Shown one piece after another: positions 3,404 through 30,378 of a stretch of 30,655 bases of DNA. The stretch is from a virus: IMG/VR virus record IMGVR_UViG_3300042465_006921, positions 1-30,655 of that record; one strand, given 5' to 3'. The notes under the pieces are model-generated. The model searched no databases. It was not told the origin of the DNA and saw nothing but the letters and a program-made list of their open reading frames with translations. Each line of letters begins with the position of its first letter. Position 1 is the stretch's first letter. Position numbers and translations under genes: made by a program.

Positions 3404-4660
3404 ATGAATATATACGTAGGAAAGATTGGCAAGAGTATATTGTTTAATCGCAATTCATGGGGTAATATTGGAGGCGACTGTGAAGCACCCAAGTATTATG
3501 AAAACTTATTTGCACGCAATCCTAGCATTACATTTTACTTGTTGGGCTGCAATGACTTTTCTCGCTTAAGCAGCAGTGAAAAACAACGGGTCAATGTGAA
3601 TGGCAATGTGATTGACATTTGGGGTAAGGCGTTTGTGGATTGGAAAAAGAACAATCCAATGCACAGCAGCCTGCACAATATAGAATACCTTAAAGAATAT
3701 ATTGCGCTCAATCATGTAAAGTTTGATGCTGGCATTGTATTGGCTGGCCCAACTGGTACCACCAACATTCCATTTAAGGTTACCAAAATGCGTAACCCCA
3801 GCGAGATTGCTAGTCCTCTTGAGATGCTGTGCAAATATGTTGCGCCCATGACCGATTGGATGAATGATAATCGCCACATTCCATACATTCTCGTTGTCAA
3901 TGACCCGCGCTTTTGGCCGTGCAATGCACGCGATTGGATACATATGCCTAGCATTGTATTGTCGCAATATGATGAAGTTACGCACATAACAGTTCGTAAA
4001 AATTATACGGACAATGCAACAGTTGTTCACGCCATTCCTAGCACCTATAGTGCAATGGAAACCATCTTTCTCATTGGGCAAGACAAAGAAAAGCAAAGTG
4101 CTGAAACCGAAACAACATCGTTGGATACATTCTTTGGCTCAGCTGCTCCTGAAGCAAGTGGCCAAAAGGACATAAACTTTATGATTGTGCTTAATGAAGG
4201 GCGTCCTTCACGATACAACCTGTTGAAACAAACCATTCTTAATGATGTACAAGACGCAGCAATCTATGGCAAATGGGATGAGCGTACAGTGGGCTCTGAC
4301 TCACGATTCAAAGGCAGCTTACCGTTCCATGAATTGCAAACCATATTGCCTCGTGTAAAATATACATATTGTATTCCCATCAAAAAAGGATGGGTTACCA
4401 TGAAGTTCTGGGAGATGGCACATTATGGAATTATACCATTCCTGCATCCAACTTATGACGAGCAAAACCATTTGAATGCTCCACCATTCTTGCGCGTAAA
4501 GGACAGCAAAGACCTGTTTAAAAAAATACAGTTTCTTGAGGCCAATCCTGATGCATATGTGGCGCTTGCTGATGCCATCGCTGATATGTTAAAGCCGGCA
4601 TACTATTCAGGAGAACACTTGAATAGTGTTACACTAGAAGCTTTAAACAAAATCATATAA
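3404..4660 (+). CDS. GT-B-like glycosyltransferase, possibly DNA-modifying
   Basis: A 418-residue protein. The C-terminal third contains KFWEMAHYGIIPFLHPTYD (about residues 336-354), a pattern typical of the nucleotide-sugar binding half of GT-B glycosyltransferases, including the alpha-glucosyltransferase type of T4-like phages. The N-terminal half begins MNIYVGKIGKSILFN and has no motif I can name. A start at 3404 (ATG one base after the epimerase TAA) fits better than the longer frame from 3380. The neighbours (an epimerase upstream, a cytosine methyltransferase downstream) suggest that it moves a nucleotide-activated sugar onto a modified base in DNA. Glycan or lipid transfer remains possible. 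Confidence 0.6.
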   Translation: MNIYVGKIGKSILFNRNSWGNIGGDCEAPKYYENLFARNPSITFYLLGCNDFSRLSSSEKQRVNVNGNVIDIWGKAFVDWKKNNPMHSSLHNIEYLKEYIALNHVKFDAGIVLAGPTGTTNIPFKVTKMRNPSEIASPLEMLCKYVAPMTDWMNDNRHIPYILVVNDPRFWPCNARDWIHMPSIVLSQYDEVTHITVRKNYTDNATVVHAIPSTYSAMETIFLIGQDKEKQSAETETTSLDTFFGSAAPEASGQKDINFMIVLNEGRPSRYNLLKQTILNDVQDAAIYGKWDERTVGSDSRFKGSLPFHELQTILPRVKYTYCIPIKKGWVTMKFWEMAHYGIIPFLHPTYDEQNHLNAPPFLRVKDSKDLFKKIQFLEANPDAYVALADAIADMLKPAYYSGEHLNSVTLEALNKII

Positions 4661-4672
4661 ATTGATTCAACA

Positions 4673-5947
4673 ATGCACGACAACACACAAAACAAATATA
4701 CATACGCATCAATTGTACCGCTTATTGGCGGTGAAAGTTTAGGTATTCAGGAAGCGTTAAATGGGCAATTGCCAGAATATGTATTGTCATACAGTCCATT
4801 TGCGAGCAATGATGATCATTACATTCAATACATTCGCAATACCAAAGGATGGGATGGTGACTATGTGTTCCTGGATGAACAGCCTGATCATGTTGCGCCG
4901 TATGTTGATGTTGTCAATTCTACATGCCCATGTGCAGGCCTAAGCAGCTTTAGCACTGCCAGCAGTGCCGATAGCGCAATCAATGAATGGTTGTATCGCA
5001 CCGCTGAATATGTACTTGACAAGGTATCTCCTAAAGTATTTTGGGGTGAGAATGCTCCGCGGCTATACAGTAAGATGGGCAAACCGGTTGCCGATCGTTT
5101 GTTTGAAATTGGCCAAAAGTATGGTTATAGCTTAAACCTTTACTATACTGAAAGTCGATTGCACGGGTTGTCTCAGAAACGAGGCCGCACGTTTTACTTC
5201 TTTACCAAAAGCGTGAGCGCGCCACTCTTTAGTTGGTTTGCTGTTGCAGGAGAACCCATTGAAAACATCTTTAATATGCCGTATGCTCCAGGTGACCCTA
5301 TGAATATTCTATGCAATGAAGAAGATCCCAATAAGAATGGATGGGCAGCCTATGCAATGCACAAGACAGGTACCACCAATATTAAAGAGCTGTATGACAC
5401 TCTAAACAATACACAAAATCTTATTGTGTGGGCTGACGGTGGATTGGGTGACAATCTTACGGTTGTGGCAGAGTGGATGGATGAAAACGGCTATGCTATA
5501 ACCGCGGGCCGTGCTCGTGATATGGCCGTCAAACGTGCAAAAGGTATGGGTTACTGGGCACACGGTATTACACTTGCCAAAGGCATTATTCCAAGTCTGA
5601 TTGGCGCGTTACCATTCTGGATGATTAATCCATTTACTCAAACTTTTCCAACTGTGCGCGACTGTCTCCGCATCATGAAGATGCCTGAAGACTTTAATCT
5701 TTCAAGCATTTATCCGCTTAAAAGAAAGATTAATCACATTTGCCAAAATGTACCGGTAAGCACTGCGCGTGATATGATGTACAATGTAATTAAATATCTT
5801 GATGGCGATGTTGTGTGGAGCGAAAGCAACTATACCAAACAAAGCAATAAGAGTCAAACAGTTGAATATCCTACGCGAGCGGAAGCAAATGATTCTCATA
5901 AACTTGATGAATTTTTTAGTTTACAACACAAGAAAAACCTGTTATAA
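4673..5947 (+). CDS. Cytosine-C5 DNA methyltransferase
   Basis: A 424-residue protein carrying the C5-methyltransferase motifs in order. Motif I is a variant, PLIGGESLGIQEAL (16-29). Motif IV is TCPCAGLS (84-91) with catalytic Cys87, where most relatives have PPCQGFS. Motif VI is WGENAP (124-129) and motif VIII is QKRGRTF (168-174). Motif IX-like FPTVRDCLRIMKMPEDF and motif X-like CQNVPVSTA are in the C-terminal part. The enzyme should transfer a one-carbon group to C5 of cytosine in DNA, giving 5-methylcytosine if it uses ordinary S-adenosylmethionine. The substitutions in motifs I and IV are worth noting. Next to a glycosyltransferase and sugar-activation genes it may prepare the base for further modification. 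No TET/JBP-type oxygenase is visible in this window. The gene ends 22 bases before uvsX. Confidence 0.82.
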   Translation: MHDNTQNKYTYASIVPLIGGESLGIQEALNGQLPEYVLSYSPFASNDDHYIQYIRNTKGWDGDYVFLDEQPDHVAPYVDVVNSTCPCAGLSSFSTASSADSAINEWLYRTAEYVLDKVSPKVFWGENAPRLYSKMGKPVADRLFEIGQKYGYSLNLYYTESRLHGLSQKRGRTFYFFTKSVSAPLFSWFAVAGEPIENIFNMPYAPGDPMNILCNEEDPNKNGWAAYAMHKTGTTNIKELYDTLNNTQNLIVWADGGLGDNLTVVAEWMDENGYAITAGRARDMAVKRAKGMGYWAHGITLAKGIIPSLIGALPFWMINPFTQTFPTVRDCLRIMKMPEDFNLSSIYPLKRKINHICQNVPVSTARDMMYNVIKYLDGDVVWSESNYTKQSNKSQTVEYPTRAEANDSHKLDEFFSLQHKKNLL

Positions 5948-5969
5948 TAATATCTCAACGAAATAATAT

Positions 5970-6206
5970 ATGTCATCTGTACTAGAAAAACTAAAAAAGA
6001 ATTGCCGAATTAAAGAAGCCGACGTCTTGGCTGACAGCGATTTTTATGCTGAAAAAGATATCACATCCACAAGTGTGCCAATGGTCAATGTCGCGCTAAG
6101 CGGCAGTATTGACGGTGGATTGACCAGTGGACTTACCGTTCTCGCTGGTCCATCAAAGCATTTTAAATGCCTTAGCGGAGATACTCCAATCTCTGTATAT
6201 TATTAA
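5970..6206 (+). CDS. uvsX: UvsX recombinase, piece 1 of 3, with a 12-residue N-intein
   Basis: Encodes 78 residues. Residues 1-66 are the N-terminus of a T4 UvsX/RecA-type recombinase, ending in the middle of the Walker A loop (GPSKHFK; T4 UvsX has GPSKSFK at this place). Residues 67-78, CLSGDTPISVYY, are the first block of an intein followed by TAA. The next extein residue (Thr) is found at 7888 after a C-intein, so the P-loop can only be completed by protein trans-splicing. UvsX coats single-stranded DNA and drives strand exchange in recombination-dependent replication. The start has no Shine-Dalgarno, only AT-rich sequence. Confidence 0.9.
   Translation: MSSVLEKLKKNCRIKEADVLADSDFYAEKDITSTSVPMVNVALSGSIDGGLTSGLTVLAGPSKHFKCLSGDTPISVYY
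6168..6203 (+). other. N-intein of UvsX split intein 1 (12 residues)
   Basis: CLSGDTPISVYY is intein block A with the nucleophilic Cys1. The usual N-intein also includes block B (G-x-x-H), but here block B lies on the downstream piece (TAGDKH, 7678-7695). The split point is therefore very early, an atypical arrangement known from a few environmental phage inteins. Splicing activity is inferred from motifs only. Confidence 0.85.
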
Positions 6207-6212
6207 GAATTA

Positions 6213-6272
6213 CTTTAGCTGGTCCATGGTAAAATACATATTTGTATAAATACTTCCATGGACCAGCTAAAG
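6213..6272 (+). promoter_or_regulatory. Perfect 17-bp inverted repeat around the late promoter and start codon
   Basis: The arms are CTTTAGCTGGTCCATGG (6213-6229) and its exact reverse complement (6256-6272), separated by a 26-base loop. The loop contains the late promoter at 6245-6252, and the 3' arm contains the endonuclease ATG (6258) and its first five codons. RNA read through from uvsX would hide the start codon in a strong stem. A transcript begun at the late promoter would lack the 5' arm and leave the start free. The logic parallels the published control of I-TevI in the T4 td intron. Confidence 0.85.
6245..6252 (+). promoter_or_regulatory. T4-type late promoter for the Vsr-like endonuclease
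   Basis: Exact TATAAATA located in the loop of the 6213-6272 inverted repeat, 5 bases before ATG 6258. The predicted 5' end of the late RNA falls at about the start codon, so this mRNA may be leaderless. Confidence 0.8.
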
Positions 6273-7535
6273 CATAAAATACAAAATATTCTAATAAATT
6301 ATACCGACGCCTGCATAAGCGAATTGTCTAAAAAATTCGCCAATGCCAATAATGTTAAAAAATCAGACATACTAAATTATTTAAGAAATAAGTATAATAT
6401 AGTGGGTTGCCCAACTAGAGGTCAGCGTAACTATTGGATACTCAGAGGATATTCTAAAACTGAAGCTGAAATTAAAATTAAAGAATATTCTCATGTGTAC
6501 TCAACGATGGCGGTCGAGTCTATTATGAATAGACACAACATAAGTAAATCTGAGGCAGAGAATATTGTTAAAGATAGAGTATGTAAAATGAAAAAAACAT
6601 ATGAATCAATGTCAGATGAAATGATTGCCAACTTAAATAAACGAAAGGCTTCAAATTCACTTAAAAATTGTATTTCTAAATATGGTAAAGAGCATGGCAG
6701 CTTAATATATGAACAAAGAATTCAACAGCTGAAAGATAATGTGTCTTTAGACGGTTATATCAAGAGACATGGGATTGATGAAGGTACACGCTTATACAAA
6801 GAATTTTGTGAAAAAACTCAAAAGCAAAATACTCGGTCAGGTTACATTGAACGCTATGGCAGCCAAGATGGACCAATAAAATATGCGCACACACAAAATA
6901 AAAAATCCTTTTCGCATACTTTGGCAGGTTACATTGAACGCTACGGGCATGAAGACGGTCTTATAAGATATACTAAAAGACAACAAACTTATATTGAATC
7001 ACTATATGGAAACAAAACAGAAGATGAGCTTACGGCATTTCATAAATCCCAAGGGCTAACATATAAAGATGCCGTTGCAAAGCATGGACTGCTTGCCGCT
7101 AATTCCATTTTTAACAGCAGAGGCGCTAGCGCTGCTAAAGCGTCAACAGAATCTTTAAGAGTCTTAATACCATTTTATAAGTATGTAAGAAGAAGTGGAA
7201 TTGCCAAATCAGACATTTATTGGGGAATTAATGGATCAGTCGAATACTTTATAAGAGAAAATGAAAAATTTGTCACTTTTGATTTTACAATTAGATCTAT
7301 TCGTGTTATAATTGAATATAACGGAACGGTATGGCATGCAAAAAATCCAAACGACACATTAAAACACCCGTATGGAAAAACCGCTTCTGAAGTATATGCT
7401 TACGATAAACAAAAATATGAAATGGCCGAGAGACAAGGCTTTACAATAATTACGGTATGGTCTGATATACCACATAAAGAAAATTTACACAATCTAATAA
7501 AACAATATGAAAACGTTAAATACAACATACGCTGA
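6258..7535 (+). CDS. Vsr-like (EDxHD-family) homing endonuclease with tandem repeats
   Basis: A 425-residue protein. The C-terminal part (about 300-410) has the pattern of the Vsr-like homing nucleases described from fractured phage genes: YWGINGS, then FDFTI (D342), IEYNGTVWH (E353, H360) and a final ITVWSD. The middle carries a degenerate repeat of the type GYIxRYGxxDGxxxY at about 139-156, 167-185, 196-213, 225-243 and 271-285, probably a DNA-reading array. The N-terminal 130 residues are charged and helical. It lies between two halves of a UvsX intein, so its likely target is an uninterrupted uvsX at the Walker A codons. It is AT-rich compared with uvsX. Its end overlaps the next uvsX piece by 29 bases. 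Confidence 0.82.
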   Translation: MDQLKHKIQNILINYTDACISELSKKFANANNVKKSDILNYLRNKYNIVGCPTRGQRNYWILRGYSKTEAEIKIKEYSHVYSTMAVESIMNRHNISKSEAENIVKDRVCKMKKTYESMSDEMIANLNKRKASNSLKNCISKYGKEHGSLIYEQRIQQLKDNVSLDGYIKRHGIDEGTRLYKEFCEKTQKQNTRSGYIERYGSQDGPIKYAHTQNKKSFSHTLAGYIERYGHEDGLIRYTKRQQTYIESLYGNKTEDELTAFHKSQGLTYKDAVAKHGLLAANSIFNSRGASAAKASTESLRVLIPFYKYVRRSGIAKSDIYWGINGSVEYFIRENEKFVTFDFTIRSIRVIIEYNGTVWHAKNPNDTLKHPYGKTASEVYAYDKQKYEMAERQGFTIITVWSDIPHKENLHNLIKQYENVKYNIR

Positions 7536-7887
7536 ATTGCATAAATTGGTTCAGGAAAATCCGGATATTAAATATCACGTAAAAACTAGTACAGGTAAGT
7601 TCACACAAATTAATGCAACCGTCTGCAAACAATCCGATACATATGATATTGAGTTTTCTAATGGCGTTGTTTTAACAGCAGGCGACAAACATTGTTTCAT
7701 GGACAATGCCGGTTTACCTGTTGCAACCGAATCATTATTACCTGGGCAGGTTGTTCAAACGCTTAGTGGTAATGTAACATGTGTAGGCCGCTCCAATTTT
7801 AAAGTAAATCAGGAAGTATATGATATTTCTATTGATGCGCCTCATTGGTATACAAATGACGATACACATGGTATTATTCATCACAAT
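7507..7887 (+). other. C-intein of UvsX split intein 1 (127 residues)
   Basis: This part contains block B (LTAGDKHCFM at about 56-65) and C-terminal blocks F/G (VYDISIDAPHWYTN, GIIHHN). It ends in His-Asn with Thr as the first extein residue, all as needed for splicing. Only block A is missing and is supplied by the 12-residue partner encoded at 6168-6203. Confidence 0.85.
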
Positions 7888-8604
7888 ACTAGCTTTGCAT
7901 TGCTTATGGCAGGTGCATACCTTAAGAAACATAAAGACGCTTGCCTTATGTTTTATGATAGTGAATTTGGTAGTCCTCAGCAATACTTTGAAAGCTTTGG
8001 TATTGATACCAATCGAGTCCTGCATATTCCCATCAAGAATATTGAAGAACTTAAGTTTGATATTGTGAATCAACTTGAGCAAATGGAGCGCAAGGACAAA
8101 GTAATTATTGTTATTGATAGTGTTGGTAACCTTGCGTCCAAAAAAGAATTGGAAGATGCAATGAATGAAAAAAGCGTGGCCGACATGACGCGCGCTAAAG
8201 CGCTTAAAGGATTGTTCCGTATGGTTACGCCATACCTTACAATGAAAAACATTAGCCTACTTGCAATCAATCATACCTACCTCGAGATTGGTCTTTTCCC
8301 TAAGTCGATCGTTAGCGGAGGATGTGTTGCTGCTGGAACTCTTATTACTCTGCCTGATGGAACAACCAAAGCCGTTGAAGACTTTATTGCTGGTGATACT
8401 GTCCAAACGCTTGACGGCCCTAAAGAAGTTACTGCGGTCTGGAATCCAGACACACTTGAAGAAGGTGAACCTGAATGTTATGAAGTTACATTTGAAGACG
8501 GCCATAGTGTCATTTGCAGTGATGCACACAAATTCATGATTGATGACCTTTGGGTTGAAGCAAAAGATCTGAGAATCGGACAAGATTGTAAAGTATTAGC
8601 TTAA
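7507..8604 (+). CDS. uvsX: UvsX recombinase, piece 2 of 3: C-intein 1, extein, N-intein 2
   Basis: A 365-residue protein with three parts. Residues 1-127 are the C-part of intein 1, ending GIIHHN. Residues 128-272 are the central UvsX extein from TSFALL through a Walker B-type segment (VIIVIDSVGN), the SDMTRAKALK helix and INHTY, ending IVSGG. Residues 273-365 are the N-part of intein 2, starting CVAAGTL. T4 UvsX has a GGG-TG sequence at the second break, the conserved L2 DNA-binding region. This piece must therefore be spliced at both ends. The start codon lies within the 3' end of the endonuclease gene, so translation may be coupled. Confidence 0.9.
   Translation: MKTLNTTYAELHKLVQENPDIKYHVKTSTGKFTQINATVCKQSDTYDIEFSNGVVLTAGDKHCFMDNAGLPVATESLLPGQVVQTLSGNVTCVGRSNFKVNQEVYDISIDAPHWYTNDDTHGIIHHNTSFALLMAGAYLKKHKDACLMFYDSEFGSPQQYFESFGIDTNRVLHIPIKNIEELKFDIVNQLEQMERKDKVIIVIDSVGNLASKKELEDAMNEKSVADMTRAKALKGLFRMVTPYLTMKNISLLAINHTYLEIGLFPKSIVSGGCVAAGTLITLPDGTTKAVEDFIAGDTVQTLDGPKEVTAVWNPDTLEEGEPECYEVTFEDGHSVICSDAHKFMIDDLWVEAKDLRIGQDCKVLA
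8323..8601 (+). other. N-intein of UvsX split intein 2 (93 residues)
   Basis: Begins with Cys in CVAAGTLITLPDG (block A) and includes block B-like VICSDAHKFM at about 63-72. It stops after the domain that conventional split inteins carry on their N-piece, so this is a typical split site, unlike intein 1 of the same gene. Confidence 0.88.
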
Positions 8605-8610
8605 GTTAAG

Positions 8611-8671
8611 ATCATCAATTGTATAAATAAGTATGTTAACCACACATACCTATGACATTTAAATTGATGAT
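8611..8671 (+). promoter_or_regulatory. Inverted repeat enclosing late promoter and start of the second UvsX endonuclease
   Basis: ATCATCAATT (8611-8620) is repeated inverted as AATTGATGAT (8662-8671). Between them lie the late promoter (8622-8629), a nested 6-bp stem GTATGT/ACATAC (8631-8636 and 8644-8649) and the ATG at 8652. Read-through RNA could fold so that the start region is closed, whereas late RNA would lack the outer 5' arm. The pairing is weaker than at 6213-6272. Confidence 0.55.
8622..8629 (+). promoter_or_regulatory. T4-type late promoter
   Basis: Exact TATAAATA 22 bases before ATG 8652. The expected late RNA would start near 8635 with a leader of about 17 bases. A 9-codon frame (8633-8662) begins at the same place and overlaps the endonuclease start. 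I do not call it a gene. Confidence 0.78.
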
Positions 8672-9341
8672 AAAAACACATAACATAACAGGTCTCAAAT
8701 ATCTGTGTGTGACTTCCAAAGATGACTATGGATCGTATAGCGGTTCTGGGCATTACTGGAAGTCACATATAAAGACACACGGCAAGGATATTTTTACTGA
8801 GTTATTAGGAACATACCAAACAAAAGAAGAATTGCGAGATGCTGCTATTTTAGCCTCAGCTAAATATGATGTTGTTGAAAGTAGCGAATGGGCAAATTTA
8901 ATTCCTGAAACTGGATATGATTATGACGGCATTACAAGAAAAGGCTGGTTTGGATGGTATGAATCTTTATCAGATGAAGAAATACAGATTAGGAATGCAA
9001 ATATTAGTTTAAAGGTAAAGGAAAGAATCTCTAATACGGATCCTAATATAATATCGGCTCAAAACCAGAAACAACGTCTTAACATATCTAAAGAAGCTGC
9101 AAAAATTAGAAAAACAAAAATTCAAGATGTATATAATACGGGAAAACACGATGCATTATTTAAGAGATATTCAGAAGAAAGAACAGGCGGAAATAATCCT
9201 TGTGCAAAAATAATTATGATTAACGAAATACAGTATGCATGTATTAAAGATGCAGTACATGCTTTAAATTTAACTAGAGCCGTTATATCACGCCGAATTA
9301 AGTCCGATCATACACAATGGAGTAAATGGAATTACGTTTAA
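8652..9341 (+). CDS. Divergent GIY-YIG-type homing endonuclease
   Basis: A 229-residue protein. The segment GLKYLCVTSK...YSGSGHYW..HIKTHGKDIF aligns by eye with the GIY-YIG enzyme at 1239 (GKTYIGKK...YYGSG...IKKYGKENF), with the first GIY motif degenerate and YLC in place of YIG. This pattern occurs in a variant GIY-YIG group in phages. The C-terminal 45 residues (INEIQYACIKDAVHALNLT) resemble the helix-turn-helix module at the end of the 1239 protein. It sits between the halves of UvsX intein 2, so the likely target is the L2-loop codons of uvsX. The gene is AT-rich. It ends 44 bases before the next uvsX piece. Confidence 0.7.
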   Translation: MTFKLMIKTHNITGLKYLCVTSKDDYGSYSGSGHYWKSHIKTHGKDIFTELLGTYQTKEELRDAAILASAKYDVVESSEWANLIPETGYDYDGITRKGWFGWYESLSDEEIQIRNANISLKVKERISNTDPNIISAQNQKQRLNISKEAAKIRKTKIQDVYNTGKHDALFKRYSEERTGGNNPCAKIIMINEIQYACIKDAVHALNLTRAVISRRIKSDHTQWSKWNYV

Positions 9342-9385
9342 AAAGACCTTTACAAACAGAAGAAAATATATTATAATATAACATA

Positions 9386-9490
9386 ATGAAAATTAAAGAA
9401 ATTAAATCAATAGGGCGGCAAAAAGTATATGACCTTAGTGTTAAGGATACCGAGCATTACATTCTTAAGAATGGTGTTGTCACACACAAC
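9386..9490 (+). other. C-intein of UvsX split intein 2 (35 residues)
   Basis: It contains block F (KVYDLSVKDTEHYILKN) and block G (VVTHN) with the terminal His-Asn, followed by Thr as the +1 nucleophile. Its length is usual for naturally split inteins. Confidence 0.9.
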
Positions 9491-9967
9491 ACTGGCATCA
9501 TGTATAGTGCAGACAATGTTTGGATTATTGGCCGCCAACAAGATAAAGATGGTACTGAAATTCAAGGGTATCACTTTGTAATCAATGTAGAAAAGAGTCG
9601 CTTTGTTAAAGAAAAAAGTAAAATTCCAATCAGCGTAAGCTGGGAAGGCGGCGTTCAAAAATGGAGCGGCCTACTGGATGTTGCTATTGACGGTGGTTAT
9701 GTAGTCAAGCCCAAGAATGGATGGTATCAAGCATGGGATAGCGCAAAGAATGTTGAGTTGACTGGCAACCTGCGTGCTGCTCAAACCATGACTAAAGAAT
9801 TCTGGGAGACTGTATTTAAGAATACCGATTTTGCAGCATATCTTAAAAACAAGTATACCATCGGCCTTCGCGATATGATGAATGACGTTGAGGTTAATCT
9901 TGATCGTATTCCTGAGAGTACAATCACCTTTGAAGAATCCGCCGAATCCGCTGAAACAGATGACTGA
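9386..9967 (+). CDS. uvsX: UvsX recombinase, piece 3 of 3, with C-intein 2
   Basis: A 193-residue protein. Residues 1-35 are a standard C-intein ending GVVTHN. Residues 36-193 are the UvsX C-terminus beginning TGIMYSADNVWIIG and containing VEKSRFVKEKSK and VVKPKNGWY, which match T4 UvsX. It ends in an acidic tail (SAESAETDD) like that of T4 UvsX. Joining the three exteins gives 66 + 145 + 158 = 369 residues, near the 391 of T4 UvsX, so nothing appears lost. The start follows an AT-rich stretch with a TATAAT-like element that might be a separate promoter. Confidence 0.9.
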   Translation: MKIKEIKSIGRQKVYDLSVKDTEHYILKNGVVTHNTGIMYSADNVWIIGRQQDKDGTEIQGYHFVINVEKSRFVKEKSKIPISVSWEGGVQKWSGLLDVAIDGGYVVKPKNGWYQAWDSAKNVELTGNLRAAQTMTKEFWETVFKNTDFAAYLKNKYTIGLRDMMNDVEVNLDRIPESTITFEESAESAETDD

Positions 9968-10268
9968 AGCAAAAGACTATATTTTTGTCGAAAATGATTT
10001 ACATAGTGATCAATATTCGATAAAATTATTGTCTGGGCGCTGGGCGGGTGTGATCTATACATATGGACGCACCCGCCTGGTTGAGGACAAAGAAGCTGAT
10101 GTCTTAAAGGTTTCATTTGTTTATAAAATTGAGCGCTGCCCAGAAGCAATGGACAGACAATCATTAGACTGTGACTCTTCCTTTAAGAATCATATTGGAG
10201 ACGTACTAAATCATCTATTATCACAAAGCGAATTTAAAATTGGAAACAACGATGCAAAAGAATCTTGA
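9960..10268 (+). CDS. Small protein between uvsX and gene 41
   Basis: A 102-residue protein. I chose ATG 9960, which overlaps the uvsX stop, rather than the longer frame that begins inside uvsX. The sequence holds YIFVENDLHSDQYSIKLLSG and a repeated-strand pattern suggestive of a small beta-rich fold, with no catalytic motif seen. Its position corresponds to the uvsX-40-41 interval of T4, but I cannot claim homology to gp40. It overlaps the helicase start by 17 bases, so expression is probably coupled to uvsX and the helicase. Confidence 0.65.
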   Translation: MTEAKDYIFVENDLHSDQYSIKLLSGRWAGVIYTYGRTRLVEDKEADVLKVSFVYKIERCPEAMDRQSLDCDSSFKNHIGDVLNHLLSQSEFKIGNNDAKES

Positions 10269-11649
10269 GGAAATAATCATTAAAAACCTGATACAAAATG
10301 AAATGTTTACGCGCAAAGCGCTTCCTCATTTAAAACCAGAATACTTTGAAGGGCAGCATAAAGTATTGTACGAGCTGATCTTATCATTTATTGGCAAGTA
10401 CAATAAGCTGCCAACTAGCAGTGTGCTAGACATTGAGTTTCAAAACAGCGACTATGTTAACCGCAATGACCATCATGAAGTGCTAAGCAGCATTCGTGAT
10501 ATTGATAGTCCTGCAAGCGTTGACTATGATTGGCTGGTGGACAACACTGAAAAGTGGTGTAAGGACCGTGCCGTGCATCTTGCAATTATGGAAGCTGTTA
10601 GTATTATTGACGGGAAAAGCAAAGATCAAACCGAAGGCGCAATTCCAACCATTCTTAGCAATGCATTGAGTGTTACCTTTGATACAAATGTTGGACATGA
10701 CTATCTTGAGAATGCTGAAAGCCGCTATGACTTTTACCACAAGACCGAAGATAAGATTGCCTTTGACCTTGAAATGCTTAACGTCATTACAGGTGGTGGG
10801 ATTCCTCGCAAGACGCTCAACATTATTCTTGCCGGTACAGGTTGCGGAAAAAGTTTGGGTATGTGTCATATGGCTAGTGCAGCTCTTGCAGAAGGGCGCA
10901 ATGTATTGTATATCACAATGGAAATGGCAGAAGAAAAGATTGCTGAGCGTATTGATGCCAATCTTTTTGATGTGCGTATTGATCAGTTAAAGGACTTGAC
11001 TAAAGCATCATTCAATAATAAGGTTAAGGGTATCAGTGATAAAACCAAAGGCAAACTTGTTGTTAAGGAATATCCAACTGCGAGCGCACATGTCGGTCAC
11101 TTCCGTGCATTGTTGCTTGAACTAAAATTAAAAAAGAAGTTTGAGCCAGACATCATTTATATTGACTATCTAAACATTTGCGCGAGCAGCCGCATGAAAG
11201 GATTGAGTGGAAGCATCAATACATATAGTCTTATTAAAAGTATTGCTGAAGAGATTCGTGGATTGGCTGTTGAATTTAATGTACCCATCTGGAGTGCAAC
11301 TCAGGTTACTAGAGCGGGTTACTCATCATCAGACATCGAAATTACAGATACAAGTGAATGCATTGCTATTACTGAATCCGTTACAATGCGAGATGGTCAA
11401 GTTAAGACGCTCGATGAAGTTAAATTGGGTGACCAAATTACAGCAAATGATGAATATAAAACAGTAATGTTTAAGCATCATAATAAGATGAAAGACTGTG
11501 TAAAGATTACAACTGAAAGTGGTAAATCAATAATTGTTTCGAAGGATCATGTATTTCCATGTAAAAGCAATGGGAATGTTAAACGTATTAGTGTTAATAC
11601 TGGATTAATGGTTTCAGACATTCTATCTGTTGTACTCGGCAAAATGTAA
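10252..11649 (+). CDS. 41: Replicative DNA helicase gp41, N-terminal piece with N-intein
   Basis: Encodes 465 residues from ATG 10252. An upstream in-frame TTG at 10240 would add four residues. The first 369 residues are a DnaB/gp41-type hexameric helicase: an N-terminal helical domain, Walker A in AGTGCGKSLG, TMEMAEEKIAERIDANL, Walker B-region IIYIDYLNIC and WSATQVTRAGYSSSDIEITDTSE. The last 96 residues, from CIAITESV, are an N-intein. The extein resumes at 12996 with SFGLPATADLM, as in T4 gp41. The enzyme unwinds DNA 5' to 3' at the fork with the primase. Here it needs trans-splicing to become complete. Confidence 0.92.
   Translation: MQKNLEEIIIKNLIQNEMFTRKALPHLKPEYFEGQHKVLYELILSFIGKYNKLPTSSVLDIEFQNSDYVNRNDHHEVLSSIRDIDSPASVDYDWLVDNTEKWCKDRAVHLAIMEAVSIIDGKSKDQTEGAIPTILSNALSVTFDTNVGHDYLENAESRYDFYHKTEDKIAFDLEMLNVITGGGIPRKTLNIILAGTGCGKSLGMCHMASAALAEGRNVLYITMEMAEEKIAERIDANLFDVRIDQLKDLTKASFNNKVKGISDKTKGKLVVKEYPTASAHVGHFRALLLELKLKKKFEPDIIYIDYLNICASSRMKGLSGSINTYSLIKSIAEEIRGLAVEFNVPIWSATQVTRAGYSSSDIEITDTSECIAITESVTMRDGQVKTLDEVKLGDQITANDEYKTVMFKHHNKMKDCVKITTESGKSIIVSKDHVFPCKSNGNVKRISVNTGLMVSDILSVVLGKM
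11359..11646 (+). other. N-intein of the gp41 split intein (96 residues)
   Basis: It starts with Cys (CIAITESVTMRDGQ) and has the block B-like segment IIVSKDHVFP at about 58-67, with a 29-residue tail to the stop. It lies between TDTSE and SFGLP of the helicase. The layout matches environmental gp41 split inteins, but I recall the well-studied gp41-1 and gp41-8 inteins at different extein sites. Confidence 0.87.
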
Positions 11650-11653
11650 TTAT

Positions 11654-11661
11654 TATAAATA
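11654..11661 (+). promoter_or_regulatory. T4-type late promoter with a weak start-codon hairpin
   Basis: Exact TATAAATA 19 bases before ATG 11681. TATCAT (11663-11668) can pair with ATGATA (11681-11686), which includes the start codon, and GTAATT (11646-11651) with AATTAC (11689-11694). A late RNA starting near 11667 would lose most of the 5' arms. The stems are only 6 bp each and could be chance. Confidence 0.72.
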
Positions 11662-11680
11662 ATATCATACTACAGATTTT

Positions 11681-12742
11681 ATGATAGCAATTACCGATCC
11701 ATTAGAGAGAAAACCTATACGAGACATAATTAATAAATTGCCTGATGATAAGAAACAATATTTCATTAAATTTATAGCTGAATACATTGGTCATGAAAAA
11801 CTATCATCGTCACTTAAGCGTAAATATGAATTGTTTAAAGATATACTGGTGAATAATGAAAATTCATATTTTTCATTATTCACAGAATACAATTCATCCA
11901 ATAATCAATATCGTAAAGTGGATATTAGACATGGCTTAGGCTCAAGTAAAAAGTTAAAAACCGCATACGAGGCGAGGCCTAAAGCAGTGAATGTAAATTC
12001 ATGCTTTACGATTACTTATTGGATGGCTAAAGGCTTATCTACTGAAGAAGCTAAAAAGAAGGTTTCTGAATTGCAAAGAAAAAACGCAAAGAAAAAGCAT
12101 CATAAATTTAAATTGAACGGCTTAAGTTATAAAGAGTATCTACCCAATTGTATTGAATATTGGATTGCTAGAGGATATGATTTAAACGAGTCGGAAATTC
12201 TTAGGAAACAAATTTCTATAAAATCTGAGTTATCATATGTGAATTATATTGAAAAATACGGGTTTGATATAGGTACGGCTAAATTAAAAGCACAGCACGA
12301 AAAAAGAAAAGCTACATTGATTGAACGGTTTGGCACAACGGTATTAAATGGTAAATGTTCAAAGGAATCACTTAAATTTTTCATTCCACTTTATAAAAGT
12401 ATTAGAAAACTTGGTGTTAATAAAAATGATATCTTTTGGGGTATTCGTGGAAGTAAAGAATTTGCGCATCATTATAATGGCATGAACTTCTTTTATGATT
12501 TTACAATTAAATCATTAAAAATAACAATTGAATATAATGGTGCATTTTGGCATGCGCGTCCTGAAACTGAGTGGAAAGGCTTTGGATCTAAAGAAGAAAA
12601 CCTTGCTTATAACCATATTAAAGAAAATACTATTAAACAGTACGGCCATGATTTATACATTGTATGGTCGGATGAAGATCTTGAATTAAAAAGAAATACT
12701 ATAACACAAAATATTAAAGAAAAATACTATGCAACCGCTTGA
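11681..12742 (+). CDS. Vsr-like (EDxHD-family) homing endonuclease
   Basis: A 353-residue protein. The C-terminal 125 residues match the endonuclease at 6258 segment by segment: FIPLYKSIRKLGVNKNDIFWGIRGS, YDFTI (D273), IEYNGAFWH (E284, H291) and a final LYIVWSDED. The N-terminal half is lysine-rich, with segments CFTITYWMAKGLSTEEA and CIEYWIARGYDLNESE that look like a duplicated DNA-binding unit, plus one YIEKYGFDIG repeat like those of the 6258 protein. It lies between the gp41 intein halves and probably targets an uninterrupted gene 41. It is AT-rich. Its last 14 bases overlap the C-terminal gp41 piece. Confidence 0.82.
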   Translation: MIAITDPLERKPIRDIINKLPDDKKQYFIKFIAEYIGHEKLSSSLKRKYELFKDILVNNENSYFSLFTEYNSSNNQYRKVDIRHGLGSSKKLKTAYEARPKAVNVNSCFTITYWMAKGLSTEEAKKKVSELQRKNAKKKHHKFKLNGLSYKEYLPNCIEYWIARGYDLNESEILRKQISIKSELSYVNYIEKYGFDIGTAKLKAQHEKRKATLIERFGTTVLNGKCSKESLKFFIPLYKSIRKLGVNKNDIFWGIRGSKEFAHHYNGMNFFYDFTIKSLKITIEYNGAFWHARPETEWKGFGSKEENLAYNHIKENTIKQYGHDLYIVWSDEDLELKRNTITQNIKEKYYATA

Positions 12743-12995
12743 AGAATATTGTCTAATTAAAGCAAATGAGCTTATCACAAAGGGTATGGTATCTGAACAT
12801 ACCGATGTTTTTGAATTAACTGATATGTTAATTGCGCTTGAAACTGAAAAAATTGATAAGAATACGAAAAGTGATCATAACTTAAATTATAATGATCCTA
12901 TTGTTTCTATTGAGGATGTTGGTAAGGTTGAAACTACAGATATTTCAACCTCAGGTGATAACCTATTTTACTGCAATAGCATTTTAACAAAAAAC
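12729..12995 (+). other. C-intein of the gp41 split intein (89 residues, Lys-Asn end)
   Basis: The conventional C-intein begins near residue 57 (PIVSIEDVGKVETTDISTSG) and ends NSILTKN before Ser. The usual penultimate His is Lys. About 55 further residues (acidic and helical, starting MQPLEEYCLI) precede it, with no counterpart I recognise in other C-inteins. They may aid association with the partner or be left over from the insertion. Confidence 0.8.
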
Positions 12996-13289
12996 AGTTT
13001 TGGACTACCTGCAACCGCTGACTTGATGATTGCATTTATTCGTACAGAACAACTTGACAAGATGAATCAAATTATGGTTAAGCAACTCAAAAATCGTTAC
13101 AATGATCCAACCACCAACAAACGATTTACCATTGGTGTTGATCTGGCAAAGATGAGGCTGTATGATGTTAGTGATCCTACCGCAAATATTATGGCCGATG
13201 ATTCTTCTCAATCTGCTCCACAAACTCCTTTTGCTGCAGGGCGAAGCGGAGCAGCACGAAGCAATAAGTTTGACGATTTTAAAATCTAA
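12729..13289 (+). CDS. 41: Replicative DNA helicase gp41, C-terminal piece with C-intein
   Basis: A 186-residue protein. Residues 1-89 are an unusually long C-intein. Residues 90-186 resume the helicase at SFGLPATADLMIAFIRTEQL and continue through MVKQLKNRYNDP and KRFTIGVD to a C-terminus ending SNKFDDFKI. The spliced helicase would be 369 + 97 = 466 residues, close to the 475 of T4 gp41. The start lies within the end of the endonuclease gene. A late promoter for the following gene begins 7 bases after the stop. Confidence 0.9.
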   Translation: MQPLEEYCLIKANELITKGMVSEHTDVFELTDMLIALETEKIDKNTKSDHNLNYNDPIVSIEDVGKVETTDISTSGDNLFYCNSILTKNSFGLPATADLMIAFIRTEQLDKMNQIMVKQLKNRYNDPTTNKRFTIGVDLAKMRLYDVSDPTANIMADDSSQSAPQTPFAAGRSGAARSNKFDDFKI

Positions 13290-13295
13290 CTTTAT

Positions 13296-13303
13296 TATAA
13301 ATA
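13296..13303 (+). promoter_or_regulatory. T4-type late promoter
   Basis: Exact TATAAATA 6 bases before ATG 13310. It opens the late gene block and separates it from the replication genes. The predicted RNA 5' end is within a base or two of the start codon. Confidence 0.85.
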
Positions 13304-13309
13304 ACATAT

Positions 13310-14908
13310 ATGTCAAACGTAGTAAGTTTTAAAAGTTATTTGGCTGAGGCCATGTCAAACTCGTCAACCGACAAAGCAGCATTCCTAATTGCCAAATATC
13401 TTAAAAAGAAGACTGGCGTTGTCATGTTTCGTTATCCCGGTCTTGAAGCATTTAAGAACAGTGATGGCGCAGGTTTTGGTTTGCGTTTCTATTCCACCAA
13501 GAAGAATGTTTCATTGCGTTTCAACTGGAAAAGCGCTAGTCAAGCAGGCTTTGTCAATCTTGCAAGTATTGATTACTGGAACGGTAAAGCACCGGCTCCA
13601 TTCCACATTGAATTTGATCAAAGCGTAAGTATTGTTAAAGTATTGCCGCTTGTTGCTGATGCGCTTAAAGACAACAGCATCGATTTGGGTAAGATTCGTA
13701 CCATGCCCGATGATGTGCCGCTCAATGAAGACATTAGCTATGATTTTTTAGCTGAGGCCGCAAGTCCAGTAGATATTCTTAATGATATTTTAGATATGGT
13801 CACCGAGCCTTCCTTCGCAAAAGGCAAGGTATATACCAAACACAAGAGTGCTGGTCAGAAGATTTTTGATCAGCTTGAAACCACATACCCATCACTGTTT
13901 GTCAAAACTGGCACAAAGTTCACATGGGCTGGTAAGGCAAAGGACATTGCAAAGATTCGTAAAGAACAAGGCGCATTGCTTGATGCAACTGGCAGTGTTG
14001 AAGCAAAAGTAACACGCGGCGCAGCTAAAGAAAAGTATGTTGTATCTCAAGAAATCAATGCACTTGAAAGCGATCAAGAACGACTTAGCTTTGAAGCGCA
14101 GTTGGTTGACCTTGAAAACCTTGTTAAACTAACTGTTAGTGGTGCAGCAAATGCATTGTTTGTTAGCGGCAAAGGCGGTGTTGGCAAAACACATACCACC
14201 GAACAAATCCTAGGCAACCTTGGATTGCGTGATGGCGCTGGTTACTTTAAAAATACTGGCAGCGCTAGTGCGGCTGGTTTATACAGTTTGCTGTTCCGCT
14301 TTAAGGACAAAATCATCTTCTTTGATGACTCTGATGATGCATTGGGCGATCAAGAAGCGCGCAACCTGTTGAAGGCGGCCACCGATACCAAGAAGATTCG
14401 CAAATTGGTATGGAACAAAATGGGCAAGAACGTTGTTGATCCTGACGAAATGACGGATGAAGAAATTCTTGATGCCGGTTTGATTCCTCGCTATTTTGAA
14501 TTTACTGGTAAAGTTATTTTTATTAGTAACCTGCCACTAAACAAATTGGATCCAGATGGTGCGTTGCGTACACGCGCATTTATTATTAACATTGATCCAA
14601 CCGAAACAGAAATTTACGAATTTATGGACAAGATTGTTGGCAACATCACACTTGAAGATGGTTTGGAGTTGGATATGGAGGCCCGCAAACATGTGGTTGA
14701 CTTGCTGCGCAAAGGCAAAAGCAAACAAAGTGCTAACCTTCGCAAACTATCACGCGGCCTAAACATGAGTGCTGGTGCTATTGCGAGCGGTGTTGAAGTA
14801 AGTGATGCAGACTTGTTTCGCATGATTGAAACATATGCTACTCCAATACTTGGGTTTCTTTCAATTGGGCTGGCAACGCTTCATGCGGTGGCTTCTTCAA
14901 TTTGCTAA
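13310..14908 (+). CDS. AAA+ type ATPase with N-terminal capsid-targeting-like peptide
   Basis: A 532-residue protein. It begins MSNVVSFKSYLAEA, resembling the T4 capsid-targeting sequence (MKTYQEFIAEA), with a possible prohead-protease cut after LAE. A second FLAEA is at 146-150. The ATPase domain has Walker A SGKGGVGKTHT (286-296), Walker B IIFFDD (335-340), a sensor-like IFISNLP and an arginine region LRTRAF, as in AAA+ enzymes. The C-terminal 25 residues (ILGFLSIGLATLHAV) are hydrophobic and might be a membrane segment. It is probably an internal head protein delivered with the DNA, but its substrate is unknown. It is expressed from its own late promoter. Confidence 0.75.
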   Translation: MSNVVSFKSYLAEAMSNSSTDKAAFLIAKYLKKKTGVVMFRYPGLEAFKNSDGAGFGLRFYSTKKNVSLRFNWKSASQAGFVNLASIDYWNGKAPAPFHIEFDQSVSIVKVLPLVADALKDNSIDLGKIRTMPDDVPLNEDISYDFLAEAASPVDILNDILDMVTEPSFAKGKVYTKHKSAGQKIFDQLETTYPSLFVKTGTKFTWAGKAKDIAKIRKEQGALLDATGSVEAKVTRGAAKEKYVVSQEINALESDQERLSFEAQLVDLENLVKLTVSGAANALFVSGKGGVGKTHTTEQILGNLGLRDGAGYFKNTGSASAAGLYSLLFRFKDKIIFFDDSDDALGDQEARNLLKAATDTKKIRKLVWNKMGKNVVDPDEMTDEEILDAGLIPRYFEFTGKVIFISNLPLNKLDPDGALRTRAFIINIDPTETEIYEFMDKIVGNITLEDGLELDMEARKHVVDLLRKGKSKQSANLRKLSRGLNMSAGAIASGVEVSDADLFRMIETYATPILGFLSIGLATLHAVASSIC

Positions 14909-15358
14909 ATGATTAAATTTAGTATATACGGCTGCAGTAAAGATAAGCGATTAAAACGTCGCGTCGGTGCTGCAGCCGTTTTCTTTTTAAAACAGCTCCT
15001 ACCGCGCAAGCGCAACATTGATGTGCGCATAAAGTTGGTTAAAGACCTGCTAGCTAAAGAAAATAATTATGGCGAATGTTATGACTTGGATGTATCGCCA
15101 GGCCACAAGTACTATACTATACGGCTAGACTATGCTGATGCTGATACGGTAATACGTACGCTTGCGCATGAAATGGTTCACGTCAAACAATTTGCGCGTG
15201 GCGAATTGCGCATGTTGTATACTGGTTATTGCGCCAAATGGAAAGGCGAAAAGTATCCTGATGATATTGAATATGAAACTTCTCCATGGGAAGTTGAAGC
15301 AAACCATATAGAGCCATTGCTGTCGGCCAAGTTTATTGACAAATACCCTATGGTATAA
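14909..15358 (+). CDS. SprT-like zinc metallopeptidase
   Basis: A 149-residue protein. The zinc-binding HExxH is HEMVH (H87, E88, H91) in TLAHEMVHVKQFARGE, and a third ligand may come from WEVEANHIEP about 35 residues later. The pattern and length resemble SprT-like proteins common in T4-like phages. The N-terminal 35 residues are basic (KDKRLKRR, LPRKR), which could favour DNA or RNA contact. The start lies directly after the ATPase stop, so the two are co-transcribed. No capsid-targeting peptide is visible. The biological substrate is not known. Confidence 0.72.
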   Translation: MIKFSIYGCSKDKRLKRRVGAAAVFFLKQLLPRKRNIDVRIKLVKDLLAKENNYGECYDLDVSPGHKYYTIRLDYADADTVIRTLAHEMVHVKQFARGELRMLYTGYCAKWKGEKYPDDIEYETSPWEVEANHIEPLLSAKFIDKYPMV

Positions 15359-15361
15359 ATA
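15354..15361 (+). promoter_or_regulatory. T4-type late promoter
   Basis: Exact TATAAATA overlapping the metallopeptidase stop codon, 15 bases before ATG 15377. A leader of about 10 bases is expected. Confidence 0.82.
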
Positions 15362-15376
15362 ACTATACTTCACGTT

Positions 15377-16291
15377 ATGTCTAGCTTAGCCGGAAAAGAA
15401 TTATATAAGTACGATTGGCGCGCCGAAGTCTTTCTTAAAAAGCTTAAGAACAACGAGCCTTTTGAATTGGAAAATGGTAAAAAGGTGATATTCATACCAG
15501 CCAAAGATGTTATCAATATCATCACCAAAAGGTTGCCAACCACTGGTATACGATTACTTGACGCCAAAGGCAATGCATATTCCTTAAAGGATGTATCAAA
15601 GAATGCCGAATTTGGTGGCCGCGGAAGCGGCGGTGGAACAGTTAAAGAAGACCGCGAATTATTGTCTTTAATAGAGCAAATTGATGCAGCAAAAAGTGAG
15701 AATGCAGCGGCCACAATCAAAATAAAGGTTGGTAATAAAACCTATGACGTGTATGGCGCGGCTAGCACTGCAGGAACACCAAAGAGCGACTTTCACTTGT
15801 TGGATATTGATGGTAAAGAGATTGTTTGGTTATCTCATAAAGATGGCAATAAAGCAAAAGACTTTCAACAATGGGGCGGTATAAGTGCGGCAAAGGAACC
15901 AACTATTTTCTCTCATAAAGAAACACAAAAGTTTATTGCCGATCTTAAACGTGAATACCCAAACGGCTTACCGCCTGCAACTACTCTATATCGTAATATT
16001 AAAGATGATAAGCTAAAAATGCTTAGTGTATATGGCAATAAGTATGGAACAACGCTTGGGCAACAAAATGTTAGTATGCTATTGCAAGGTGCCGTCAAAT
16101 TGGTTAAGAAAGGCAAACATTATGAATTATCGGCTAATCATGTTCATTATAATGGTGATAGCGTAGATGGCGATGGATATGATCCAGTTCTTATGGCTAT
16201 ATACAAAGGCGATCGCAGCGATGCTGGCGTAAAAGGTACACGTATTGTAATTAGTCCAGTGGGTGGACGTAAAGGAATAGAATTCAAATGA
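15377..16291 (+). CDS. Conserved late protein with ELYKYDWR domain, possible nuclease
   Basis: A 304-residue protein. Residues 6-90 (GKELYKYDWRAEVFL to FGGRGSGGG) form a domain shared with the next gene. A later segment, PKSDFHLLDIDGKEIVWLSHKDG followed by AKDFQQWGG, resembles the core of PD-(D/E)xK nucleases, with Ser in place of the usual acidic residue before x-Lys. This is a pattern guess, not a firm assignment. Unlike its paralogue it lacks a capsid-targeting peptide. It has its own late promoter and overlaps the next gene by ATGA, so the two probably act together. Confidence 0.55.
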   Translation: MSSLAGKELYKYDWRAEVFLKKLKNNEPFELENGKKVIFIPAKDVINIITKRLPTTGIRLLDAKGNAYSLKDVSKNAEFGGRGSGGGTVKEDRELLSLIEQIDAAKSENAAATIKIKVGNKTYDVYGAASTAGTPKSDFHLLDIDGKEIVWLSHKDGNKAKDFQQWGGISAAKEPTIFSHKETQKFIADLKREYPNGLPPATTLYRNIKDDKLKMLSVYGNKYGTTLGQQNVSMLLQGAVKLVKKGKHYELSANHVHYNGDSVDGDGYDPVLMAIYKGDRSDAGVKGTRIVISPVGGRKGIEFK

Positions 16292-17595: not shown

Positions 17596-17596
17596 C

Positions 17597-18835: not shown

Positions 18836-18882
18836 ATATACAAAACGATCCATTGGTAGAGATAGCACGCGCCATTCTTGAA
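18832..18882 (+). repeat. NIQxDPLVE leader repeat, copy 1
   Basis: A 51-base coding repeat that also occurs at 19514 and 20208. The DNA is strongly similar across copies, with most differences synonymous. Confidence 0.8.
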
Positions 18883-19503: not shown

Positions 19504-19504
19504 T

Positions 19505-21029: not shown

Positions 21030-21037
21030 TATAAATA
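21030..21037 (+). promoter_or_regulatory. T4-type late promoter
   Basis: Exact TATAAATA starting one base after the lysozyme-like stop, 7 bases before ATG 21045. Confidence 0.82.
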
Positions 21038-21044
21038 TAGCAAT

Positions 21045-24963: not shown

Positions 24964-24971
24964 TATAAATA
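24964..24971 (+). promoter_or_regulatory. T4-type late promoter
   Basis: Exact TATAAATA 7 bases before ATG 24979, in the 70-base gap after the endolysin. Confidence 0.84.
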
Positions 24972-24978
24972 CATTGTT

Positions 24979-27024: not shown

Positions 27025-27027
27025 ATA
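27020..27027 (+). promoter_or_regulatory. T4-type late promoter overlapping a stop codon
   Basis: Exact TATAAATA that includes the TAA of the previous gene (27022-27024). It is only 4 bases from ATG 27032, the tightest spacing in the window. Confidence 0.82.
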
Positions 27028-27031
27028 ACAT

Positions 27032-29252: not shown

Positions 29253-30335
29253 ATGAGTACAGAAGATATTTACTGGCTAAACAAAGACAGCCGAAAGTTC
29301 CTGAGCAGAGGGTATGTCCTTGAAGAAAACGGCGAAACAGCAGAAAGCCGCATGCGCGATATTGCGGAGGCTGCTGAAAAACGACTGCAGCTGCCTGGCT
29401 TTGCGGACAAATTTGAAAGCTATCTACACAAAGGATACTATTCACTAAGCAGTCCTATTTGGAGCAACAGCGGCCGTGAACGAGGTTTGCCAATAAGTTG
29501 TTTTGGAACATACATTAGCGACACTCTTGAAGAGATTGCTGGTTATAAAATTGCTGAAATCTCCATGATGACAAAGAATGGCGGTGGCACAAGTGCATAC
29601 TTTGGTGCATTGCGCGGCCGCGGTACTCCTATTAGCACTGGCGGAACAAGCACTGGCGCGGTACACTTTATGGAGCTGTATGACAAGCTGATGAGTGTGG
29701 TGTCACAAGGCAATGTGCGTCGCGGCAGCTTTGCGGCATACCTGCCAATTGACCATCCTGACATTGAAGAATTTCTAAAGATTAAAGGTGAAGGCCATAC
29801 CATTCAAGACATGAGTATTGGTGTTACTGTTAGTGATGAATGGATGCGCAAGATGATTGATGGCGATAAAGACGCGCGTAAGACCTGGGGATTGGTAATT
29901 AAAAAGCGCTTTGAGAGCGGCTATCCATACTTATTCTTTAGTGATACCGCAAACAATGGTGCGCCTCAAGTATACAAGGACAAAGGCAAACTCATTCATG
30001 CAAGTAATCTTTGCTTAACCGGCGATACACTAATCGATGTATCAATTAATTCAGACGGAAGCGACCATAAATCAATTACACTTGAAGAATTCTGCTTTCT
30101 ATTTAAATTAAATATTTGGGATAAGATATTTGTCAAATCGGTTAAAGATGATCAATCTATTTGGGCACAGGTTACTGTTGCAGAAAAGACTGGAAAAACA
30201 AATGAACTGATAGAAATCCTTAGTGATTGCGGGAAGACAATCAGATGCACGCCAGATCATAAGATTTTAACAAAAAACCGAGATTGGGTATGTGCTAAAG
30301 ATCTTGTTGAATCGGATGAATTGATATTAGAATAA
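29253..30335 (+). CDS. nrdA: Ribonucleotide reductase large (alpha) subunit, N-terminal piece with N-intein
   Basis: A 360-residue protein. Residues 1-253 are the start of a class I alpha subunit, with LSSPIWSNSG, GLPISCFGTYI, NGGGTSAYFGALRGRG and GAVHFMELYDKL, ending KLIHASNL. No N-terminal ATP cone is present, so allosteric control by dATP may be absent. Residues 254-360, from CLTGDTLIDVSINSDG, are an N-intein ending at a stop. The extein should resume downstream of the HNH gene, beyond the window. The break is in the conserved SNLC region of NrdA. The arrangement resembles environmental NrdA split inteins. The gene follows nrdB by 16 bases. Confidence 0.92.
   Translation: MSTEDIYWLNKDSRKFLSRGYVLEENGETAESRMRDIAEAAEKRLQLPGFADKFESYLHKGYYSLSSPIWSNSGRERGLPISCFGTYISDTLEEIAGYKIAEISMMTKNGGGTSAYFGALRGRGTPISTGGTSTGAVHFMELYDKLMSVVSQGNVRRGSFAAYLPIDHPDIEEFLKIKGEGHTIQDMSIGVTVSDEWMRKMIDGDKDARKTWGLVIKKRFESGYPYLFFSDTANNGAPQVYKDKGKLIHASNLCLTGDTLIDVSINSDGSDHKSITLEEFCFLFKLNIWDKIFVKSVKDDQSIWAQVTVAEKTGKTNELIEILSDCGKTIRCTPDHKILTKNRDWVCAKDLVESDELILE
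30012..30332 (+). other. N-intein of the NrdA split intein (107 residues)
   Basis: Starts with Cys (CLTGDTLIDV). The block B-like segment TIRCTPDHKILTKN is near 77-89, and it ends AKDLVESDELILE. The pattern CLTGD...TPDHK...AKDL..DDEL matches my memory of the NrdA-2 group of split inteins. Its C-partner should lie beyond the right edge. Confidence 0.88.
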
Positions 30336-30351: not shown

Positions 30352-30378
30352 ATACTCTTTATTATAAATACTGAGTAT
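30352..30378 (+). promoter_or_regulatory. Late promoter inside a small hairpin that covers the HNH start
   Basis: The exact late octamer TATAAATA is at 30363-30370. It lies in the loop of a 6-bp inverted repeat, ATACTC (30352-30357) and GAGTAT (30373-30378), whose 3' arm covers the first two bases of the ATG at 30377. AATCC (30335-30339) can pair with GGATT (30379-30383) to extend it. A late RNA would start near 30376 and lack the 5' arm. This is the same layout as 6213-6272 but with a much weaker stem. Confidence 0.65.

Follow-up and report, generated by a model that had tools for sequence, protein, structure and literature searches.

A phage uvsX gene in three pieces, with two distinct split inteins predicted to join its product and an endonuclease-type gene in each gap

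We analysed a 30,655-nt stretch of DNA from a T4-like phage (IMG/VR record IMGVR_UViG_3300042465_006921, positions 1 to 30,655; hereafter the window), in which the recombinase gene uvsX is coded by three open reading frames (ORFs) on the plus strand, at 5970-6206, 7507-8604 and 9386-9967. The first piece carries 66 UvsX residues up to GPSKHFK, followed by CLSGDTPISVYY and a stop. The second consists of a 127-residue C-terminal intein half (IntC) ending in HHN, 145 UvsX residues and a 93-residue N-terminal intein half (IntN), and the third of a 35-residue IntC ending in THN and 158 UvsX residues. Once the intein halves are removed, the exteins (66 + 145 + 158) give 369 UvsX residues in one continuous chain with a computed mass of 41.3 kDa, in exact agreement with the coordinates and the reconstruction proposed in an earlier sequence-only reading. 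That reading had also assigned an endonuclease to each intein, and an endonuclease-type gene was indeed found in each gap, putatively Vsr-like at the first site and I-TevI/Seg-like at the second (Table 1).

Table 1. Features of the split uvsX locus and of the other split genes in the window (L numbers are our labels for compared sequences; aa, amino acids; MFE, minimum free energy)
Feature	Position	Strand	Evidence
UvsX N-extein, 66 aa, ends in Walker A GPSKHFK	5970..6167	+	PHROG UvsX-like E 1.3e-13
IntN of intein 1, CLSGDTPISVYY, 12 aa, then stop TAA	6168..6203	+	homologous to 14-aa IntN (L094, L089, L140) and to L087 cis intein
17-bp perfect hairpin over site-1 endonuclease start codon	6213..6272	+	MFE -32.9 kcal/mol
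T4-type late promoter box TATAAATA in hairpin loop	6245..6252	+	exact box
Site-1 putative Vsr-like homing endonuclease gene, 425 aa	6258..7535	+	TIGR00632 vsr E 0.0097
IntC of intein 1, 127 aa, HHN end	7507..7887	+	52% to L094; invariant His, terminal HN in six alleles
UvsX middle extein, 145 aa	7888..8322	+	Pfam RecA E 3.9e-8, PHROG 1.1e-61
IntN of intein 2, 93 aa	8323..8601	+	TIGR01445 intein_Nterm E 6.3e-7, above cut-off
Late promoter box TATAAATA of site-2 endonuclease	8622..8629	+	also in L005, L004
Site-2 I-TevI/Seg-like (GIY-YIG-type) homing endonuclease gene, 229 aa	8652..9341	+	PHROG 314 E 2.9e-10
IntC of intein 2, 35 aa, THN end	9386..9490	+	TIGR01443 intein_Cterm E 3.4e-8, above cut-off
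UvsX C-extein, 158 aa	9491..9964	+	Pfam T4_UVSX_C E 6.8e-13; PHROG 18112 E 1e-66
Third split intein, in dnaB helicase (TDTSE|S)	11359..12995	+	exact empty site in L002
N-half of fourth split intein, in nrdA (29253-30335)	30012..30335	+	CLTGDTLIDVS..., 107 aa

In alignment, the joined UvsX was colinear with intact UvsX from many phages and was 71% identical to that of Phage C48C1 and about 86-90% identical to those of L016-L033. Every extein was assigned to UvsX/RecA by PHROGs and Pfam, and the joined protein is full length, with the Walker A motif, the RecA core and the T4 UvsX C-terminal domain. Compared with L002, the N-extein was 100% identical at the amino acid level (0 nonsynonymous and 11 synonymous changes) and the middle extein had a ratio of nonsynonymous to synonymous substitution rates (dN/dS) of 0.03. 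Against L002/L005, the ratio was 0.09-0.11 for the IntN and 0.02 for the IntC of the second intein. These results demonstrate strong purifying selection on the exteins and intein 2.

The insertion point of intein 2 is SGG|TGIMYSAD. This intein has a conventional split (93/35) and all of the catalytic motifs CVAAGT (Cys1), SDAH and THN|T. In T4-like phages this site is commonly occupied, usually by a split intein and sometimes by one in cis, as in L111, where a single protein reads through it. In the complete genomes of two cultured phages, Yersinia phage TG1 (162 kb; KP202158) and Vibrio phage vB_VmeM-32 (200 kb; KU160494), uvsX is split solely at site 2. Both share with the window the SGG|TG site, the conventional split and the endonuclease gene in the gap, but their Walker A site lacks an intein and their uvsX is in two pieces, not three.

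Intein 1 interrupts the Walker A motif (GPSKHFK|T) and is split 12/127, so the earlier description of two different split inteins, one cut very early and the other conventionally, was borne out. Its catalytic motifs CLSGDT, GDKH (block B), PHWY and HHN|T are present, with Gly replacing the usual S/T of block B, as in most alleles. Relatives of intein 1 were located by pattern scans and protein scans. The results showed an uninterrupted cis intein, read through as a single protein, in L087 and L092, a split intein with a 14-residue IntN in L094-L096, L089/L091 and L140, and a C half lying behind a Vsr-like endonuclease in L090. The cis form must splice, because its single read-through protein would otherwise yield no UvsX. 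Six IntC1 alleles were aligned with L087 as the reference (30-50% identity), and all kept the block-B and block-F His, PHWY and the terminal HN. The motif GPSKxFKCxxGDT matched one contig, since other alleles vary at those residues, and the site-1 DNA pattern had no match among the genome contigs searched.

For structural comparison, the L087 cis intein, a homologue of the window's split pair, was modelled with AlphaFold2 (AF2) at a predicted local distance difference test (pLDDT) score of 94.7. The Foldseek matches listed were inteins or intein-like domains, which identifies a Hint fold, and the best template modelling score (TM-score) among them was 0.84 (2.0 Å) for VidaL (6VGV). The split after residue 12 falls between model strands 7-12 and 16-21, directly after strand 2; this is the S1 position, and together with the short IntN it places intein 1 in the atypical S1-split class. 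By sequence profile, the match to VidaL was weak (E 0.34) and that to the gp41-1 intein was E 8e-5. VidaL, a natural S1-split intein, has a published splicing half-time of about 1 min (PMC13014065). Intein 1 shares the natural S1 split and a very short IntN with VidaL (16 aa) and PolB16 OarG (15 aa), but differs in having an IntN of 12 aa and weak sequence similarity to VidaL.

Empty alleles define the borders of these insertions. L002, whose DNA is 84-92% identical to most of the flanking region, reads GGTCCATCAAAGCACTTTAAG|ACTAGCTTT without the site-1 element and carries intein 2 with a different endonuclease. Exact empty alleles were found at site 1 in L002, L009 and L016 and at site 2 in L016, whose uvsX is intact with both sites empty. 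Such alleles in near relatives indicate that gain or loss at each site was recent. Together with the homing endonuclease gene that separates the halves of each intein, they give the locus the features of a fractured gene. The exact empty sites, and a second stop within four codons, ruled out frameshift or readthrough and chance ORFs; readthrough of the site-1 stop cannot join the pieces, because the frame closes again within that distance. A search of 5500-13500 against Rfam gave no credible family of RNA intron.

We consider it highly probable that UvsX is made by two trans-splicing reactions of distinct split inteins, each of which arrived with a homing endonuclease gene. The 12-residue IntN1 of piece 1 and the 127-residue IntC1 of piece 2 would form a complete Hint fold, and its splicing would join GPSKHFK to TSFALL and so create the ATP-binding Walker A loop. 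The 93-residue IntN2 of piece 2 and the 35-residue IntC2 of piece 3 would join SGG to TGIMYS. No lone fragment would be a complete ATPase, with Walker A forming upon intein 1 splicing. The sequence-only reading had the two reactions occurring in order, but either junction could splice first and no fixed order is needed. It also called uvsX essential, which is too strong, since uvsX mutants of T4 remain viable, although impaired.

Since piece 2 has the order IntC-extein-IntN, pairing of its own halves could cyclise the middle extein, which is why orthogonality of the two inteins would matter. It is expected to follow largely from the split points and the low identity: cross-pairing of IntN1 with IntC2 is unlikely, because the middle of the fold would be missing and inteins 1 and 2 are 28% identical over 90 residues. 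Tandem protein trans-splicing of three segments was described in the papers searched as an engineered method only (PMC12707363); the assembly proposed here shares its three segments and its two orthogonal split inteins (orthogonality here being predicted), and differs in being natural rather than a laboratory design. No description of a natural double-split gene, or of a protein needing two trans-splicing events, was found in the literature searched. A combined search returned no paper on UvsX split inteins; it missed key intein papers, and an earlier report of a split intein at UvsX site 1, perhaps under the name 'VidaL UvsX-2', is possible.

Several points weigh against this assembly. Splicing is a prediction from sequence and a structural model. 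The shortest natural IntN characterised has 15 residues (PMC10189870; PMC13014065), and no characterised precedent for a natural 12-residue IntN was found in the literature; a 12-residue IntN is nevertheless plausible, because the M86 intein, when split artificially, works with an IntN of 11 residues (PMC13014065). Intein 1 had no direct hidden Markov model match in Pfam or NCBIfam, so its identity draws on the cis homologues, the motifs, the gp41-1 profile match and the model. It is also too divergent for a measure of selection (closest allele 52% identical). Finally, the 30.6-kb record is a genome fragment, and an intact uvsX may lie elsewhere in the genome.

An interrupted ribonucleotide reductase in phage Aeh1 works without splicing, and the uvsX pieces could likewise remain unspliced at one or both sites and yield active UvsX by non-covalent assembly. 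The interruption of the Aeh1 gene by mobE is on record (PMC2988022), and the 12-residue IntN1 is shorter than any characterised natural IntN found. We regard this explanation as improbable, however, since the catalytic residues are kept at both inteins, the intein 2 halves have dN/dS values of 0.02-0.11, and site 1 lies within the Walker A loop, where the cis form of the intein must splice to give UvsX.

It is just as improbable that uvsX is decaying, broken by homing endonucleases, with its role taken over by a different recombinase encoded elsewhere. The fragmentary record leaves room for such a gene, and some related endonucleases have decayed (a 91-aa remnant in L089). Against this stand the strong purifying selection on the exteins and intein 2 and the recurrence of the layout in L090. 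In line with the earlier claim, no second uvsX was found elsewhere within the record, nor did the longer relatives checked hold an intact second copy, including the 146-kb G005 (two split uvsX pieces without an intact copy) and the cultured phages TG1 and vB_VmeM-32.

An assembly chimera of empty and occupied alleles is conceivable for metagenomic material whose relatives occur both with and without the element, but its likelihood is negligible, since L001 (13,095 nt) and L084 (13,946 nt), from one IMG/VR contig, had zero mismatches to the window over 13 kb across both sites, L108, from another contig, covered 8651-20105 on the site-2 side with 3 mismatches (99.97%), which makes a single mis-assembly unlikely, and double occupancy recurs in the different lineage of L090.

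In the trans-splicing assembly, each intein would have arrived jointly with a homing endonuclease gene whose product would cut empty uvsX alleles. The site-1 endonuclease ORF, which IntC1 overlaps by 29 nt, is placed tentatively in the Vsr-like (EDxHD, I-Bth0305I) class. Its profile matched 3R3P 'Mobile intron protein' weakly (E 0.17), and its AF2 model had a low pLDDT of 44.7; it was 37% identical to the L090 site-1 endonuclease and 41% identical over 111 aa to the dnaB endonuclease described below. Tandem GYIxRxGxxxG repeats of about 30 residues precede the Vsr-like domain in both the window (6258-7535) and L090 (3-827). A sense Vsr-like gene occupies the site-1 gap in these two. In L094 (4970-6001) the gap holds an antisense GIY-YIG-type endonuclease with repeated DPEWKATTGK units, in L089 the endonuclease remnant, and in L140 a short spacer. 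Site-1 intein and extein divergence gave a Spearman coefficient of 0.33 (p 0.14, non-independent pairs), which supports neither vertical descent nor transfer. The site-2 endonuclease scored 23 bits against Pfam I-TevI_DNA-bd, under the cut-off of 27.

The hairpin at the start of the site-1 endonuclease gene was far more stable than expected (z -8.9; 0/200 shuffles); its loop carries the late promoter box and its 3' arm the start codon. A hairpin and box of this design are also found in L002, at the different site-2 endonuclease there (-25.6 kcal/mol, z -8.1). For T4 I-TevI and SegB and for Aeh1 MobE, a stable RNA structure covers the start region on read-through transcripts, and the position of the late promoter is such that the 5' arm is missing from late transcripts (PMC2988022). 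The window shares the hairpin and late promoter with these systems, but here the box sits in the loop and ends 5 nt ahead of the ATG, which could make the late message leaderless. By this likeness, the hairpin would silence the intein 1 endonuclease on the early uvsX read-through message, and the promoter within it would allow late expression.

The sequence-only reading had called this locus an extreme form of the known fractured-gene layout. In that layout, reportedly described by Dassa et al. in 2009 for gp41, NrdA and NrdJ, a homing endonuclease gene lies between the halves of a split intein. The window agrees with it in that a T4-like phage has replication-pathway genes (uvsX, and also dnaB and nrdA) interrupted by split inteins, and a free-standing endonuclease gene occupies the gap, the Vsr-like one being presumably related to I-Bth0305I. 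It differs in having two split inteins in one gene, three polypeptides, and one split after 12 residues in Walker A. Multi-split genes are not confined to the window, as L090, L105 and L016 show. The database search that had been suggested for other uvsX genes with both sites occupied found L090: in a survey of 119 distinct uvsX alleles (an intein-biased sample in which the window lineage was entered twice, one of its loci being truncated), both sites were occupied in two lineages, the window and L090, and 36 alleles combined a split site 2 with an empty site 1. In L105 (reverse strand, about 3744-7709 in reversed coordinates) a different uvsX also falls into three pieces; its middle extein is only 11 residues long (SMFPTAVISGG), and a GIY-YIG-type gene lies in each gap. 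The dnaB of L105 is split in Walker A with a 16-aa IntN and has a second N-intein at the gp41 site. The dnaB of L016 (7153-11423) is likewise divided into three: a VidaL-like split intein (IntN 18 aa; a clear VidaL homologue, E 1e-13) interrupts Walker A, and a gp41-site intein follows. In L005 (2206-4269), dnaB shows this Walker A split too, after which the contig runs out.

Together with its relatives, the window provides natural pairs of inteins that have to function alongside each other within a single cell, and a 12-residue IntN would be easily synthesised for protein labelling. Empty, cis, split, split with endonuclease, and split with remnant alleles at one Walker A site offer a way to trace intein splitting. 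They also raise the question of why a phage tolerates, or exploits, a piecewise recombinase, helicase and ribonucleotide reductase. One speculative and rather unlikely answer is that this is natural tandem trans-splicing in which the shortest natural IntN, of 12 residues, closes Walker A, and that such joints, including those in dnaB and nrdA, are checkpoints timing recombination and replication rather than mere parasites.

Elsewhere in the window, the dnaB intein, absent from L002 at the exact border 11358|12996, has a Vsr-like endonuclease gene at 11681-12742 in its gap, with TATAAATA at 11654. The nrdA N-intein is followed by TATAAATA at 30363 and by an HNH-like ORF that starts at 30377 and runs off the contig, with the C-half beyond the window. 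The window contains 11 exact TATAAATA boxes (2.8 expected), all on the plus strand, and one lies 5-22 nt upstream of each of the four endonuclease-type ORFs located after an IntN. Seven of the 11 boxes end 4-7 nt before an ATG (1226-1239, 6245-6258, 13296-13310, 21030-21045, 24964-24979, 27020-27032 and 30363-30377), so late transcripts may start at or beside the start codon as leaderless late mRNAs. A free-standing GIY-YIG homing endonuclease gene was also found at 1197-1937 (PHROG 314 E 1.3e-35), and its true start is probably the ATG at 1239 (MIGYIYRTTNKINGKTYIGKK), just 3' of a late promoter box.

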